A stretch of 64,000 nucleotides of DNA. Source: Candidatus Altimarinota bacterium. Lineage in GTDB: Bacteria; Patescibacteriota; Gracilibacteria; BD1-5; UBA2023. The position numbers were made by a program, and so were the translations under genes. Position 1 is the first letter of the stretch. Each line of letters opens with the position of its first letter. The stretch covers positions 62,001 through 126,000 of the forward strand of contig JACMPW010000003.1 in the NCBI GenBank assembly GCA_014377305.1, written 5' to 3'. Under the pieces are notes generated by a model. It was not told the DNA's origin and did not search any database. It saw only the letters and a program-made list of their open reading frames with translations. Shown here piece after piece: positions 12,979 to 63,288 of this stretch.

Positions 12979-15900
12979 ATGTTCCAACTCATACTCGCAT
13001 CCGTCGCATTTGTACCATGGGTCGTATACATCATCCTCACATACTATTCCCATGACTTCTCTCAGATCGATCATATCGAATCAGCAAGTGGATATGGTGG
13101 ATACCTCGCAGCAATAGGGATCATCTATCTCATCTACAAGGCGATATCGATGATGTCGAGTGAGCATCGAGTGAGGTTCTGATTTTGGCATCTCATAGGA
13201 TTTTCTTTTCTCCATCTTCTCGTAGTCACGATTGCCTATACTGCGATGCAAAAAACGACTGGGTCACCATTTTTTGGAATTGGGTGAGCATCGAGCATAG
13301 TACTATTTGGACATATTCTCTCGCTCCTGGTATATCCAGTATTTCTCGCATTACTCTGGCGAGCTGTTGGATATAGTATCCTCCACCTGATACCAGGCTG
13401 GAAAGATATCATACTTCGTATCCGTATCGGTGCAGAGATATCAGTAGGGATAGTCCTTTTTGTTACGGGTCTTCTCAGTTTTGCAGTGTTCCATCTCTTT
13501 ACTCTCACAAGCCTTCTCATAGTCTGCGGTATATTGTTGATACTCGGTATTCCTGGCTGGATAGCAACTTACCGAGATATCTCTACGAAATATATAGAGT
13601 TCGATCAGCATGATACTACGAGTGATTCTATTCTCGCTATAGTAAATCCGAGACTCCTCACGGCAGAGTTCGCATTTCTCATCATATCATTTCTCATCTC
13701 AGTATCACTCATCAATGCGATCCGTCCGATGCCAATAGGCTGGGACGATCTCGGTATCTATATGAACTTCCCTCGTATCATGGCTCTCACGGGCTCAGCC
13801 CTTGAGTGAGCCGGTACTTTCACTTGGCAGCTCATCACTGGAAGTGGATTTCTCTGGAATCAGATTGCCGCAACGGCATTTTATGTCAATCAACTCGGTG
13901 GGATACTATCTATGATAGTCCTAACTAGTATACTCTCTGTTGTACTAGAAACGCGAGATCGCAAATACCTCATCTCACTCCCCCTCATCCTCGCTGGCAT
14001 ATACTATATCATGCCGATGACAATATTTCAACAAGCCAAGGATATGAAGCTCGATCCGGCCTTGATGATGGTGAGTGTGAGTGCATTCGGTGTTCTATGG
14101 TATGCACTAAAAAACAAGATCCGAGAAAATCACTTCTATTTACTCATTGGAGTTGCAGGATTCATAATAGGCCTAGCCTTCTCTATCAAGCTCACCACCC
14201 TCATACTCATCATAGCGAGTCTTGCTCTCATGGCTTATACTATTCTTGGATTTTTTGGACTCACTGGATTCTTTTTTATATTTTTATCGATTTTTACTGG
14301 TGTAGGTCTCTGGGCAAAGATGAATGTATGGATGCCAGTTGAAAATATAGGGCTCATCCATAATATCACTCTCTGACTCGGTGTCATCGGTATAGTGAGT
14401 CTTGTATTCGCATACATGCAAAATGGGGTAGTGAAACTGCGAACATGGTTTCTGGCCAATCTAGTACTCACACTTGGTATCATTCTTGCTCTGACTCCAT
14501 GGTTTATCAAAAATGGATTCGAGGCTCGTACATTTACCCCAGAGCAACATGGATCCATACTCGATGGACTCATCGGTGGATATGCAAATATCTGATTCAA
14601 TAACTACTCTGCTATCTACTCCGTTGATGAATATACTACCAAGAAAAAGGCTCAGCAAGCATCGAGTATCACCAGTGATGGCAAATCACAGAATGAAGAC
14701 TTCTCCAGGTATTTCGGACAAGAAAGTGGACTCAATAACTATCTCAAGCTCCCCGTCAATCTCACATTCCAGAAAAATCAATCCGGCGAATTTACAGATA
14801 TTACCTATATATTCTTCGCATTCTTACCTGCAATATTCCTATTTGTACGAGGACGCCGTTATGGATGAGCAAACTGGACTCGCTCTATTTTCCCAGTTCT
14901 CATAGGACTCGCTCTACTGATCGCGATACTCTATTATTTTGTGGGATCTACTGGGACCTTGTTTTCGACGATGCTGAGTGGAATAGTGCTCCCTATGGGA
15001 TATGCCCTCATCCTCGGTGGCATACTTATAGCGATAGCTATATTCCACTTCTTCGTTGAGCGAGATGAGACTGGCTCATATATTCAGGATATATTCGTGA
15101 TGCTCCTCATATACGGATTTCTCTTTTTGATCAGTGCATTCGGGATCGTATGGTATGGTGTATTTATATATTTTCTCTGTCTCGCTCTCATCGGACTCGC
15201 ATCACTTGCATTCACGAGCTATACAGACAAAGATAGCGAAGATATAATAGGTATGAAGGTAACCCTCTCATTTCTCTTTTTCTTATTCATCCTCGTCTAT
15301 ATAATCAGGTCGGCATTCCCACATGGATGGAATAATCTCATATGAGCCGGTATGAATGAATATAAATATAACAAATTGAACCAAAATGAGAGTATATTCA
15401 CCTATCGTGGCGACTATATCACTCCGATCGCAACAATGAACACGATAGATCCACAGGCAATAGTTATCAGAGCTGGATCACTCGCGAAGAGTGTAATGAT
15501 GAGAAAAATCCTAACTCCTGAGAGACTCGCGAGTATGAAACCTGCAGATCTCCACCAGGTACTCCTCTACTTCATAACACAAATAGAGAGTGGTAAAAAT
15601 ACAATTCAAGATAAAAAAGAAGTACAACAAGATATAGAGAATATCGGAAATGAGCTCTATTCGAGTATTCTCTCACCGAAATGAAACGAAGTAAACAAGA
15701 AATGAATATATCGTATCGGTACATTTATGACCTACCTCATCAATGAAAATAACAAGAGGTATCTCGATGATAGTCTCGTATTCGAGTTTGAGTCATTTTT
15801 CTACGATCCAAAACCTGAGGTCACTATAGAACGAATGAAAAAAGTCGGACTCGGATATCTCCTCACGGATCTCAATGCCGCAACTATAGATCGTGATCCT

Positions 15901-16296
15901 CGTCATGTACTCACGACTCGGTTCGAGCATCTCCTCCTCACGATGCGTGCATCGAATCTGACACTCGTCGATACGGATAATCTCTGTCTCAAGATCGCCA
16001 TCAACGAGTACAAGGCAGGACGACTCCAGACTGATACAGAGTTCATTGATATAGCAGGAACCAACTATGAGAGTTATCGAGATACTGGAGCAGTAGCTCG
16101 TGGAGTCAAGCAGAATAAGTGTGCTAACTATGTAATCGGTATGCTCAATAGCATGTCTGGAAGTGGGACCACACTTCCTCAGTATCTCGTGCCACTCCAG
16201 ACTGGACTCACTGCCGCCAAAAATCAAACCGAACAGCAGAATGTACTCTCTCAGTACATCGGACAGAGCTATTTCGCACTCTTTGAAATAAAATAA
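12979..16296 (+). CDS. Giant polytopic membrane protein, possible GT-C glycosyltransferase
   Basis: 1105 residues. Some 18-20 hydrophobic segments occupy roughly residues 1-790; the remaining ~300 residues are soluble. An acidic motif PIGWDDLGIY near residue 252, after a transmembrane helix, resembles the catalytic acidic loop of GT-C (PMT/GT39-like) enzymes that use lipid-linked sugars. No close family is recognised. The position after LCP, PBP and a flippase suggests work on the same surface glycan. Around nine TGA-Gly codons break it in the standard code. The gene ends at the bidirectional terminator shared with murD. Confidence 0.75.
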
Positions 16297-16313: not shown

Positions 16314-16343
16314 AAAACTCCCAGAAGTTATTCTGGGAGTTTT
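16314..16343. terminator. Bidirectional terminator containing the murD stop codon
   Basis: 13-bp perfect stem (16314-16326 with 16331-16343), loop GTTA, T-runs on both strands. It serves the membrane protein gene (+) and murD (-); the murD TAA is complementary to loop bases 16328-16330. Confidence 0.9.
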
Positions 16344-17599
16344 TGTATACACGCTCGGAATTGATTCGCTCTATCGAGATAGTCATGGAAGAGTCCGAAC
16401 GATGCACAGCCAGGAGATAATATCAGTACATCTCTATCAATACGTCGACCATAGAGCCAAGTCACTCCATCTGCGAGTGTATCAGTTGCAAGATAGGGTA
16501 TACTCTCTTGTATTGCTATATCGACGAATGCCTGCTTGGTAGCACCGATACATACCATCGCTTTGACCCTCTGAGCAAACAATGGCGAGAGATGAGCAAA
16601 TACATCTCCCTTATCAGATCATCATACTATGAGGAGAAAATTGCGAGTAGTACCATATGCTCCGAGTGCAGCTGAGAGACTCTGAGAACTCGTAGACTTG
16701 GAGTCTTCGACGATCTGGATACCTCATTTTGTAGCGATCAGTTCGAGTCTATGAGGGAGTCCTGTGATATATTTTAGATGTTCTCTGATATTATTTGAAC
16801 AGATTCACATCTCATTCGCTACTACAGCACAGGAGAGGATATTCATCGCATTATGTACTCATGAGAAATTGGTACCCGAGAGTTTGTATTTTTTCTGTCC
16901 AGAGATTCGGATATTTTCTCAGTCGGTCGAGTTTTTGAGATATATATCACTAGAAAAAGATCGAATATTTTCTGGTATTTCTACATGCAATCCATTTTTC
17001 TGTACGAATTCGATTACCTGTACATTCACGATTGATTTTTTGGTGGTATGCTCCATGAGATTCATCTTCGCATCTATATATCACTGGAGACTCGTATGCC
17101 AATTGAGATGATCAGGTTTGAGATTGGTAAATATAGAATAATCTGAGCTGTATTTTCGTATAGCAAAAGCCATGAAACTCGATACCTCCACTACAATAAT
17201 ACCCTTCTGTTCTCACTTCTCGAGAATACCGAGAACTGTCGATGAAAATGGGATATCAAAATTTCCCGAAAGATAGACTGATTTCTTGACAGAAAACTCT
17301 TTTTCGAGTATATTATACATAATCCATGCAGTAGTCGACTTGCCATCTGTGCCCGTCACAGATACAATCTGAAATCCGCTAGGTAGGAACTGATATGCAA
17401 AATCGAGCTCACACATCACTCGCCCTGTCGCATAGATAGGATGAGTCTCAGGTATTCATGGGGATGGTATGATCACCTCATAGGCATCATAGCTACTCAG
17501 AGTATCACTATCATCGTAGATCTCATATGAGATCCCCTGTTTCTCACAGAGAGCTGCGACAGCTGAACCTACCTTTCACTTTCAATAAATCAGATACAT
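16328..17599 (-). CDS. murD: UDP-N-acetylmuramoyl-L-alanine--D-glutamate ligase
   Basis: 423 residues. N-terminal Rossmann-like domain starts MYLIYGKGKVGSAVAAL, with both motif glycines as TGA. The ATP-binding loop VTGTDGKSTTAW lies near residue 70, the middle part has NLKPDHLNWH and HNAMNILSCAV, and the late motif LLIVGGSDKG has its two Gly encoded by tandem TGA-TGA. MurD adds D-Glu to UDP-MurNAc-L-Ala in the cytoplasm; murI, which makes D-Glu, is 1.4 kb away. The ATG at 17599 lies 20 nt from the divergent gene start at 17620. Confidence 0.95.
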
Positions 17600-32295: not shown

Positions 32296-35200
32296 ATGAC
32301 TCCATTTGCTGATATCCTCGCGTCGCTCAATACTCAGCAACGAGAAGCTGTAGAAACTATATATGGACCAGTCCTCGTGATCGCCTGACCAGGGAGTGGA
32401 AAAACTCAGATCCTCGGAGCTCGTATCGCGAATATACTCAAGGAAACCGACTATCTCCCATCCAATATCCTCTGTCTCACCTTCACAGACAACGCTGCTC
32501 GCAATATGCGTGATCGTCTCGCTCGTATGATCGGGCCTGATGCCTACCGTGTAGCAATCCATACATTCCACAGCTTCGGCAATGAGATACTCGCCCGGTA
32601 TAGATATCTATTTCGTGAATATAGCGACTCAGGAACGATAGATATAGTGACGGCATCTCGTATCCTCGATGAGATACTCGCTCCTCTCGCCTGGAACGAT
32701 CCATACAAGCCAGGTATGAGAGCCTGAGAAACCATCCAGGACATCCTCGGGCGTATCTGAGATCTCAAAAAATGAGGCATCACACCAACTCTCTATCGTA
32801 TGATCCTCGAGATGAATCGTCGAACCATCGATGGGCTCGCACCTATTCTCCAGAGTCATTTTGAGCAAATAGACGCCCTAGGTCAGAAGAAAGATGAGAA
32901 ACTGCAAAAGATCGCCATATTCAAAAATATTACTAATATAGTTCAACAATTGTCCGAAAATGAGAGTATAGGCGGATATGACTCACTCCTCCATACTATA
33001 CAACTCTGACTCGATGAAGCCTGGTTAGAATATGATGATGAGCCGAGTACCAAGTTCCTCACCGCCTGGAAAAATAGCTGGACAGACAAGAACTACCAAT
33101 GAGATCGTATCTGGAAAGAGTCGGAGAAGCTCAAAAAACAACTCTCGCTTGCAAATATCTATGAGATATACCAATCCCGTCTCGAATCAGAGTGACTCGT
33201 AGACTTCTCTGATATGATATTGAGAGCTATCGAGCTCGTCGAGCGAGATCCGATGATCCAGGCGAACCTAGCAGAACAATACCAGTTTATCCTCATCGAT
33301 GAGTTCCAGGATACCAACGAAGCACAGATGCGACTCGTGAACTCGATACTCTCAGTAGACAGTGAGAATCCCAATATATTCGCCGTTGGAGATGATGATC
33401 AATCCATCTACAAGTTCCAATGAGCCAATGTCAAAAATATCCGAGACTTCCATGATAGATATACAGATACTCGACTCATCATCTTGGGTACGAACTATCG
33501 ATCTACCAGTGAGATCATCGAGTCTAGTCGAGCAGTTATAGTATCTCAACAGTCCGATATATCAACTATATTCCCATGAACTAGCAAGGATTTCCAGTCA
33601 AATAGCGGCCAATGAGAATGAGTACACCAATATAGATACAATACTGAGCTCCATGAGCTCTCTGCTATCATCTCAGATATAGAGATAAAGATAGCATCTG
33701 GAATACAACCTCAGGATATCGCAGTCATCGTGAAAAAGAATAAATCCCTCGAAACTCTCGCCAAGTGACTCCTCGGAATATGAATACCAGTCAGTATGAG
33801 CAAATCTGAGTCTATCTGGGAAGATGAGATCATCATGCTCATCACGAATATACTGAAATATCTCAACTCACTCTGTACCAATCAGGAACTCAAAGAAGTC
33901 CTCGTCGATATCCTCACTCACCCGTGTTGGAATATCTCTCGTCTAACTCTCTGGCAAGTCTCTCGTGATATCTATCATAGTCGCAAGGCTGAAAACAAGA
34001 GCTGGATAGAACAACTCTCGAGTCACGAGACACCTGAGATCCGAGATCTCGGATACTTCCTGAAGGAACTCTCCAATATGAGTGAATATAGTCGTCTCGA
34101 GGATCTCATAGATGCTATCACCGGTGCATCATCACTTATACTCCCAGATGAACATGATGAGGACAGTAGATCGAATCCACTACAGATATCGATGCTCTGA
34201 GGCGAGAAGAGGGACTTCGTTTCACCTATTTATACTCACTTTTTCGGACAATTATCGAACTCTAATAGTACAATATCGGAACAATATCAACTGAAAGCGA
34301 GATCTCTCGCCAATATAGCAAAACTGACCAATGAGATCCGCAACTACAAGAAACAAAAACCACTCCTGATGCTGAGAGACGCAATCGAGCTCATTTCCAT
34401 GATCGAGAAATACGATATCCGTATCGAGACATCGCATCTCATCGGAAATGAGCAGGCTGCTGTCAATCTCATCACCGTCCACAAGGCGAAGTGACTCGAG
34501 TGGGATAATGTGTATGTACCATTTCTCACAAAACGTGAATACAAGCTCGGCAAAATATCTGGGGCTACATTGCCAAAAAATCTTCCCCTCGAAGCCGACA
34601 AAGACGACGATGCTGATATCGAACGGCTCGTCTATACGGGATATACTCGAGCTCGGCACACTCTGAATGTGAGCTACTCAGTGATGAGTATGGATGAACG
34701 GGTAAATGAACCACTCCCATGTATTGGATCAGAGATGAATGAATGGGTAGAGCAAGCTGATATCACACCGATGAGTCTAGCGGACAATCTCGAGAACGCT
34801 AGCCAATCCCTCTGGAGTCTCCCCTACGATACTCAGGAAGAGGCATTTCTCCAAGATAGGGTCGACAAGCAGTTTATCATGAGTGCGACCGCATTGCAGA
34901 ACTTCCTCGATATCAGCTCAGGTGGTCCGACTCACTTCGTAGCGAACAATATTCTCAGATTCCCCGGGGCAAAGAATATAGCAGGATGCTACGGGTCTGC
35001 GATGCATACCGCTCTCGAGATATTTTTCACGGATTACAAAACAAATAACTCATACAAAAAAGAAATCCTCTACACTGAGTTCGAGAAAAGTCTCCGAAAA
35101 GAAGGATTCGAGAAACCAATCGAGGATACCTGGCTCGCCAAGTGACGAGAAAACCTCGAAGCACTCTATAGTGAACTCGTCGGCAAACCCTATGGTGAAC

Positions 35201-35682
35201 TCACTCTGGAGAAGGACTTCCGTACTGAGTGAGGTGGAGTCTGGCTAGGTGATATACAACTCACGGGCAAGATCGATCGCATCGAGCGACTCGCCGATGA
35301 TACTCTCATCATCACAGATTACAAGACAGGTGGATGATTCGATAGCTTTGACGGCAAGTGAGCCGACTATGCTCGGGTGAAACAGTGGAAATATCGACTC
35401 CAACTCGCCTTCTATGCGATCCTGTTCGAGCTCTCACCTCGCTATAGAGCGTTCCCTCGTCGCCAGTTCGAGCTCTTTTTCATAGAAAAAAACCATGACG
35501 AAGACCGGTTCCACCGAGTGACTGAATATATCCACGAGGGAGAGATCGAGCGGACCAAGTCCCTCATCCGAGCCGTCACCGAGTGCATCCGTACACTGCG
35601 GTTTCCTGATGTGAGCAAGTATCCTGCGACTATTGAGGGGATCAGACAGTTTGAGGAGGATCTTTTGAATTGACAAATATAG
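32296..35682 (+). CDS. UvrD-like helicase fused to PD-(D/E)XK nuclease
   Basis: 1128 residues. SF1 helicase: Walker A AGPGSGKTQIL (first Gly is TGA), ILCLTFTDNAA, motif II ILIDEFQDTN (~332), GDDDQSIYKFQGA (~374), then YTGYTRARHTLNVSYS. C-terminal RecB-like nuclease: GKIDRIERLADD and IITDYKTGG (~990-1012). This is the domain order of AddA/RecB-like helicase-nucleases that process double-strand breaks, here in one chain, without a visible partner. About 19 TGA-Gly. TATAAT at 32282-32287 lies 8 nt before the ATG, so the message may be leaderless. Last codons are LNGQI with TGA. Confidence 0.9.
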
Positions 35683-61698: not shown

Positions 61699-62649
61699 TT
61701 AAAGATTATTGAGATACCAATCATAGCTGATCTGAATACCATCTTCTAGATCGATACTATGTTTCCATCCGAGTTCTTGCATCTTGGTGACATCCAAGAG
61801 TTTTTTCGGGGTACCATTTGGACGAGCAGTATCCCAGATAATTTCTCATGTATATCCGACTGTTTTCTTCACGAGTTCGCCGAGATTTTTTATTGATATA
61901 TCTTCTCCTGTCCCTATATTGAAATATATATCACATTTCTCATTTTGTTCTTTTGTTGGAGAGAAATTCTGCATCAAATGAATACATGCCTGAGCCATAT
62001 CATCAGAATAGAGAAACTCACGAAATGGTGAGCCGTCTCCCCAGAGAGTGACATTTGGGAGGTTATTGATTTTTGCCTCATGAAACTTGCGTATCATAGC
62101 AGGTAAGACGTGAGAACTCTCGAGATCAAAATTATCATATGGACCATAGAGATTGGTTGGCATACAGGCAATGAACTCTGTGCCATATTGTCTATTGTAG
62201 CTCTGACAGAGCTTTAGTCCTGCTATTTTTGCGATGGCATACGGCTCGTTGGTGGCCTCTAGTAGTCCTGTGAGTAGATATTCTTCTTTTATAGGCTGAG
62301 GAGAAAATTTGGGATAAATACAACTCGAGAGGAGAAATAGCATCTTCTTGGTACCAGTCTTGTATACCCACTCTATAACATTCATCTGGATACGGAGATT
62401 GTCCTGCAAAAAATCAACAGGACAGGTATTGTTTGCGACAATACCTCATACTTTTGCAGCAGCGAGAAATACGTACTCTGGTTTTTCTGTCTCAAAAAAT
62501 GCCTGAACGGCCGCAGAGTCGAGGAGATCTAATTCTGCATGAGTACGGACAATAATATTGGTAAATCACTCTTTCTCAAGATTGCGAATCAATGCTGATC
62601 ATACGAGCCCACTATGTCCTGCAACATAAATTTTAGAATTTTTTTCCAT
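61699..62649 (-). CDS. fcl: GDP-L-fucose synthase
   Basis: 316 residues. KIYVAGHSGLVGSALIRNLE is the NADP site (second-repeat Gly as TGA), FLAAAKVGGIVANN the GER/Fcl signature, LLSSCIYPKFSPQPIKEEYL followed by LTG, and EPYAIAKIAGLKLCQSYNRQ the catalytic Y-x-x-x-K. It turns GDP-4-keto-6-deoxymannose into GDP-L-fucose, feeding the GT10 and GT11 enzymes downstream. GMD, the preceding enzyme, is not in the window. About six TGA-Gly. Confidence 0.95.
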
Positions 62650-62714
62650 ATATGTGTGTTCTAGTCGATTAAGTGAGAGGATTGTATTGATAACTTGTTT
62701 TTTGTCACGCAAAA

Positions 62715-62738
62715 AACTCCCAAACTATTTTGGGAGTT
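62715..62738 (-). terminator. Terminator with the stop codon in its loop
   Basis: Stem AACTCCCAAA/TTTGGGAGTT, loop CTAT. On the minus strand the loop holds the TAG stop of the cupin gene; a run of six T follows. Same design as at murD. Confidence 0.9.
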
Positions 62739-63288
62739 CTAATTTAAAAGAATTCATATCCATATCATCTCGATCAAATGGATAGGGACGGAATCATCGG
62801 AATCTTGTACCTGGTTCGAGAAAGAGTGTATGTGCCTGAAATGGTAGAATAGCTATTATATCTCGAGCCCGAATTTTGATTTCTTCAATTCTCTCAATTA
62901 CTGCTCACTCTGGATCAATATCCTGCAAAAAAAGTGATCCTCATCCTTCATCAAATACGAATAATTCGGAAAGTTTTCATAAACCTGTTTCATGAGACTC
63001 TAAAAATCAGATTGATTTTTTATGAAAATGATTTCCGAGCGGGACATCTCCTGAATGAACTTCAAATTTTTGAATTGAAAAATCAGATCAGTTATACTCA
63101 TAAATTGACCTACGAGAATCTGTATGCACATGTTCTAGTCATTTTCCGATCTGAAGAAACAAAGCATCTACTTTTTCACGCACCCGTGATACATAAGGAT
63201 GATCAATAAATCACTGACTCATATGGTTATAGGCAAGAGCAGTCCAGATAATATCTGCTTGAGTATGTTCGAGGTTAGAGGGCTTCAT
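62725..63288 (-). CDS. Cupin-like protein, possibly sugar-modifying
   Basis: 187 residues. An N-terminal helical part (ADIIWTALAYNHMSQGFIDH) precedes a beta-rich domain with VPLGNHFHKKSIGF, the G-N-H-x-H metal-site pattern of WxcM/FdtA-like cupins, and LPFQAHTLFLEPGTRFRGFR with a later His. Family assignment is tentative; it could be a nucleotide-sugar isomerase or a metal-binding protein. About ten TGA-Gly hide the gene in the standard code. Between fcl and the HD gene on the same strand. Confidence 0.65.

Follow-up and report, generated by a model that had tools for sequence, protein, structure and literature searches.

In the genome of Candidatus Altimarinota bacterium, a member of the Gracilibacteria, a small set of genes have their stop codon in the loop, or at the loop edge, of a terminator-like hairpin, with coding sequence, stop and hairpin merged in one stretch of DNA, as an earlier note on this DNA had claimed. 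The arrangement is found above chance, is kept with compensating pair changes in part of the genus, and is accompanied by stems that abut or overlap the stop more often than in a sample of E. coli. We put at roughly two in three the probability that these are compact, sometimes bidirectional intrinsic terminators that have merged with gene ends and are tolerated as RNA polymerase outruns the ribosomes. The hairpins would then actually terminate transcription, on one or both strands, and transcription would be uncoupled from translation, both of which we infer from sequence.

Two gene ends inside terminator-like hairpins

The window (the whole stretch of 64,000 nucleotides that was analysed) comes from a genome of 917,877 bases in 16 contigs that is 93% complete (G000), and is code-25 Gracilibacteria DNA in which TGA encodes glycine and is not to be read as a stop. 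Open reading frames in the window are short under table 11 and reach 1128 amino acids under table 25, an example being the 1128-residue frame at 32296-35682 with 20 codons differing from table 11. Table 11 gene models, in which TGA breaks the reading frames, were dropped, and genes were called under code 25 by means of a codon model, with calls of our own for the control genomes as well.

The first of the two ends is that of murD (16328-17599, minus strand, 423 amino acids under code 25, Pfam Mur_ligase_M), the identity of which is confirmed by model TIGR01087 at 265.8 bits against a cut-off of 211.95. Its TAA (16328-16330, minus strand) lies, as had been noted, entirely inside the loop of a 13-bp stem: the terminator-like hairpin at 16314-16343 comprises 13 pairs and a loop of 4 nt (16327-16330, reading TAAC on the minus strand), has counterparts in G004, G001, G002 and G012, and takes as its 5′ arm the last codons of the gene, AAA CTC CCA GAA (K-L-P-E). 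Fold z-scores are −4.3 on the plus strand and −4.8 on the minus strand. The GGGAG core is followed by five T's on the plus strand and four on the minus strand, and four T's per strand are also paired in the 13-bp stem, so that the tail overlaps the stem base. On the plus strand, a convergent gene (12979-16296, 1105 amino acids under code 25, zero Pfam matches) ends 17 nt ahead of the hairpin, at a stop-to-stop distance of 31 nt from murD. The further claim that this hairpin ends genes on both strands stands as regards the T runs, which are present on either side; that it serves both strands is probable from its sequence, and a terminator scan of the window reports it on the minus strand only.

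The second end belongs to a gene of 187 amino acids (62725-63288, minus strand) to which no family is assigned: it had been called a cupin, an identification not supported by our searches, which gave no Pfam or NCBIfam match and no convincing PDB relative (best E 0.042). Its TAG (62725-62727, minus strand) does lie in a hairpin loop, entirely within the 4 nt at 62725-62728, and the hairpin (62715-62738, minus strand, with a counterpart in the G003 orthologue) again has the last codons, GAA CTC CCA AAA, as its 5′ arm. It was described as a 10-bp stem followed by T6; the T6 tail is correct for a stem of 8 pairs, whereas with all 10 pairs two of the T's are already in the stem. Fold z-scores are −4.3 (plus strand) and −2.6 (minus strand), and the hairpin is missed by a simple terminator scan and detected by our custom stop-proximal scanner. 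Both sites display two sequence features of an intrinsic terminator, a stable GC-containing hairpin and a U-tract directly after the 3′ arm.

Frequency and conservation of stops in hairpin loops

A genome-wide scan for terminators with comparison to shuffled sequence, the check that the note had proposed, reveals an excess of stops in loops. Around each complete stop the scan takes in 70 nt upstream and 110 nt downstream; it requires at least 5 T in 8, and covers 770,127 bases (84% of the genome) and 705 stops, 35 of the 740 called genes having been dropped as incomplete or as having less than 70 nt before or less than 110 nt after the stop within the stretch. Our first scanner missed hairpins with a stem running beyond the U-tract and was corrected once, and both results are given. 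With the first scanner, the 705 stops yield 133 terminators (7 loop, 3 loop-edge, 1 arm5, 1 'after' and 121 'upstream'), and 20 shuffles of the downstream flank yield on average 0.25 loop and 0.15 edge cases. With the corrected scanner, 160 terminators are found, of which 149 are 'upstream', 1 is 'after', 7 are loop cases, 3 are loop-edge cases and none is an arm case, and 10 such shuffles yield a mean of 0.4 loop and 0 edge cases, that is, 10 observed, a small count, against 0.4. A dispersed repeat of the uptake-sequence or REP type was considered and rejected, the pattern ACTCCCA-N4-16-TGGGAGT having 3 occurrences genome-wide; searches with Rfam families returned 0 matches in the window.

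The note had also held that a frequency no higher than expected from short intergenic distances would speak against the arrangement, and here the outcome is divided, in that crowding favours overlap and leaves unexplained why all 10 overlaps fall in the loop or at its edge. The share of loop or edge stops drops with the gap to the next gene, from 5/35 terminators at 40 nt or less to 4/67 at 41-100 nt and 1/55 beyond (three terminators without a next gene in the stretch are omitted). At murD, the same convergent partner is present in 5/5 genomes with the hairpin, at a stop-to-stop distance of 15-31 nt; G009 retains the partner at 72 nt, and there the whole terminator lies downstream of the murD stop. 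The partner was not found in the locus for the other 11 of 17 murD loci, one of which is cut inside murD. As an observation on gene order, the 1105-residue partner adjoins murD in five genomes besides that of the window (G004, G001, G002, G012 and, farther off, G009). One of the two stops may lie in the loop because the hairpin between the converging genes has less room than it needs.

These gap effects are what would be seen if the arrangement were purely a by-product of crowding, short gaps putting hairpins on stops with the loop position unconstrained, and the same scan in other genomes lends this reading further support. With the corrected scanner, and counting loop plus edge cases, arm cases and terminators in that order, we obtained 2, 6 and 128 for G001 (same genus as the window genome), 0, 1 and 17 for G012, 0, 5 and 20 for G021, 0, 0 and 20 for G014, 3, 2 and 55 for G043, 1, 2 and 13 for G032, 0, 3 and 26 for Fervidibacillus, 1, 6 and 51 for B. 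paralicheniformis, and 0, 0 and 29 for E. coli MG1655, a small control of 29 terminators in 150 kb. Terminator-stop overlap is thus found in most samples and absent in E. coli and G014, and stops elsewhere fall mostly in arms (6 loop or edge to 16 arm in the six other code-25 genomes pooled, 1 to 9 in the samples of Fervidibacillus and Bacillus). The window genome shows the clearest preference for the loop, with a loop or edge rate of 10/160 against 6/253 in the pooled code-25 genomes (p = 0.065). We nevertheless consider crowding as the whole account unlikely. When the first TAA or TAG is located, in three frames, in the 149 non-overlapping hairpins of the window genome, it falls in the loop or edge in 21 and in an arm in 38, against 10 and 0 among the actual overlaps (Fisher p = 1.3e-4). 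Crowding accounts for overlap, not for loop position.

A second argument against crowding as the sole cause comes from the orthologues, in which stems are kept with pair exchanges. Orthologue 3′ ends were compared for 6 of the 10 loop or edge genes with looser scoring (stem of at least 5, loop of 3-10, −4 kcal/mol), for which the background is 12/705 stops in G000 and 3/451 in G001. The loop or edge stop is kept in 8/16 same-genus ends versus 2/32 outside the genus, the latter being murD in G012 and gatB in G007. Within the genus, murD retains it in 3/3 (G001, at the edge, G002 and G004), the 187-residue gene in 1/1 (G003), the TlyA-like gene in 1/3 (G003), gatB in 1/3 (G003, at the edge, with the TAA of G002 at the tip of the 5′ arm), a 281-residue gene in 2/4 (G001 and G003) and a 739-residue gene in 0/2; the remaining 8 of the 16 ends are without a loop or edge stop, counting the one with its stop at the 5′ arm tip. 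The GatB models score over their cut-off and TlyA just under (243.5 versus 250 bits), and profile searches found no family for the 281-, 739- and 187-residue genes. The comparison includes 17 of 26 murD loci (L110-L126), the nine most distant (L127-L135) being left out, and 6 of 7 TlyA loci; the murD locus of G003, which is without a stop, and L259, which gave no match, were also left out. As a side observation, four genomes within the genus (L246, L248, L249 and L251) share ATTTGCAAAAAAA about 45 nt or less after the stop of the 281-residue gene; it may act as a promoter element for the gene that follows.

At murD, MAFFT put the hairpin arms out of register, and the register was anchored on CTCCC/GGGAG instead. 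The pair just outside this core reads A-T, A-T, A-T, T-A and C-G in the five genomes and the first inner pair A-T in two, T-A in two and none in G002, these exchanges being read from five sequences in that register. The stop itself varies between TAA and TAG among the genomes with the hairpin, and the proteins are 63-75% identical where stems are kept with pair exchanges. In the orthologue of the 187-residue gene, an inner A-T has become G-C and the TAG a TAA. Common descent explains part of this conservation, yet the letters have changed.

Rho, stop-to-stem distance and the order of polymerase and ribosome

On the favoured reading, that of compact terminators tolerated under uncoupled transcription, the last codons would be transcribed into the 5′ arm, followed by the stop as part of the loop and then by 3′ arm and U-tract; the mRNA would retain its stop and end an estimated 15-20 nt past it, and between closely spaced convergent genes a single hairpin would do for both strands. 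Genome compaction would drive hairpins into genes, and TAA or TAG would be tolerated in the loop without weakening the stem, selection on the stem then holding the stop there. Because the 5′ arm would be covered by a ribosome standing at the stop, formation of the hairpin would need RNA polymerase ahead of the ribosome at the gene end; by this steric argument terminators of this kind would not work under coupling, which points to uncoupling.

Stop-to-stem distances of no more than about 12 nt, if much commoner than in E. coli, serve as a signature of runaway transcription. In the window genome the full stem starts within 12 nt of the stop in 90/160 cases versus 10/29 in E. coli (p = 0.042), with a weaker contrast for trimmed stems (63/160 versus 8/29); the corresponding full-stem counts are 44/51 in B. 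paralicheniformis, 16/26 in Fervidibacillus and 86/128 in G001. Stems that abut or overlap the stop number 36/160 here and 0/29 in E. coli (p = 0.0017). A short stop-to-stem distance has been used as a sign of RNA polymerase outrunning the ribosome, as stated in the available parts of PMC7858274 and of the TERMITe paper (PMC12207403).

Rho, searched for with model TIGR00767, scores over the cut-off in 0/59 genomes (that of the window and 58 others of the same genus, family and order; completeness is 90% or more and contamination 5% or less in 45 of them), while the positive controls, two genomes of Bacillus and one of Fervidibacillus, reach 669-687 bits. Weak matches to the Rho model in the window genome (43.7 and 18.2 bits, in frames of 459 and 509 amino acids) resemble side matches in the control genomes at 41.7-43.1 bits in frames of 483-499 amino acids, where others reach 71-72 bits; they are probably F1 ATPase subunits. 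Termination in the lineage may be entirely intrinsic. NusG is present in the window genome, and tmRNA is present over its cut-off. The accessible text of PMC13323073 describes a purine bias in runaway species that is lost where Rho is lost. The third-position purine fraction in our genomes is mixed, at 0.46-0.47 in G000, G001, G012 and G021 and 0.53-0.55 in G014, G043 and G032, a split among code-25 genomes although none has Rho above the cut-off.

The note had gone further for the 187-residue gene and seen a possible coupling device, translation opposing termination as the terminating ribosome covers the hairpin. In such a device, a closely following ribosome at the stop would melt the hairpin and cause read-through into the next gene. 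The steric logic has a precedent in E. coli, where a stop 5 bp before a terminator lowers termination from about 90% to less than 10% and removal of translation abolished this repression (PMC4824070, as far as the sections available show), and 6 of the 10 loop or edge genes have a co-directional next gene. Among these is fcl (61699-62649, minus strand), a GDP-L-fucose synthase-like gene (NF047922 at 460.3 bits, under the cut-off of 500) that follows the gene at 62725 on the same strand, in an order kept in the G003 orthologue (L178). The murD partner, however, is convergent in all five hairpin genomes, as is the next gene in 4 of the 10 cases overall, and read-through at murD would produce antisense RNA. 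The co-directional genes lie 12 to 613 nt off with no shared pattern apparent, the minimum of 12 nt reflecting the mechanical ORF start of fcl (TTG 62712), for which the N-terminus favours ATG 62649 as the likely start, 75 nt off. Moreover, a promoter-like sequence lies between the terminator and fcl, directly after the U-tract: a sigma-70-like match, GTGACA-16-TACAAT (62681-62708, minus strand), agrees with the consensus at 10/12 positions, a consensus match and not a proof given 6 such sites versus 5.0 in shuffles, and the GTGACA recurs in the G003 orthologue. Most simply, the terminator would insulate fcl, and we regard a coupling device as quite improbable.

A stronger variant, in which stop-in-loop terminators form a selected class in Rho-less Gracilibacteria that senses the gap between polymerase and ribosome and terminates only when the ribosome lags, we judge very improbable; if it held, each such gene end would report and act on local uncoupling, mRNAs would be left with next to no 3′ UTR, and each ribosome that terminates would have to melt and release a 3′ hairpin. 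That the hairpins are mRNA 3′-end stabilisers or translation-termination elements and not terminators is scarcely credible: any 3′ hairpin can block exonucleases, and tmRNA could handle ends trimmed past the stop, but each of the 10 carries the T-rich tail after its 3′ arm (a requirement of the scan) in the same build as 150 other terminator-like hairpins near stops, and at murD, where two genes converge on the hairpin, each strand carries a T run.

Known systems and biological meaning

The closest known arrangements share some features with the one described here and differ in others. In Bacillus-type runaway transcription, terminators sit near stops (Johnson et al. 2020, as cited in review PMC7858274), and, as here, the stem lies a few nt from the stop, with 7/51 overlaps in our B. 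paralicheniformis sample. These overlaps nonetheless comprise 5 arm5, 1 arm3 and 1 loop, unlike the 10 loop or loop-edge cases here, and B. paralicheniformis has Rho above the cut-off. In arfA of E. coli and brfA of B. subtilis, the coding end likewise forms part of a terminator or stem-loop, with the difference that the transcript ends before the stop or is cut, giving a regulatory non-stop mRNA (PMC8012679, partial text). A non-stop terminator of this type is ruled out for our cases, the stop in the loop lying 5′ of the 3′ arm and U-tract and so remaining in the mRNA. Mycoplasma genomes, in which Rho was not found, offer a further parallel: the predicted terminators of Mycoplasma hyopneumoniae start from −11 nt, where a minus sign indicates that stop codon and terminator overlap, and the available sections of that account do not treat placement in the loop, conservation or exchanged pairs (PMC4411717). 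Among titles and openings of abstracts, in which subscription journals are thinly covered, we found no paper on Gracilibacteria termination or on stop codons in terminator loops.

In this compact genome one piece of DNA acts as codons, stop and terminator at once, and such ends will be overlooked by predictors of gene ends or terminators that allow no overlap. Since Gracilibacteria are difficult to culture, the coupling of RNA polymerase and ribosome is hard to measure in them directly. A conserved arrangement that is expected to fail under coupling of the E. coli style would in this situation amount to genomic evidence against such coupling in a lineage whose searched genomes show no Rho above the family cut-off.
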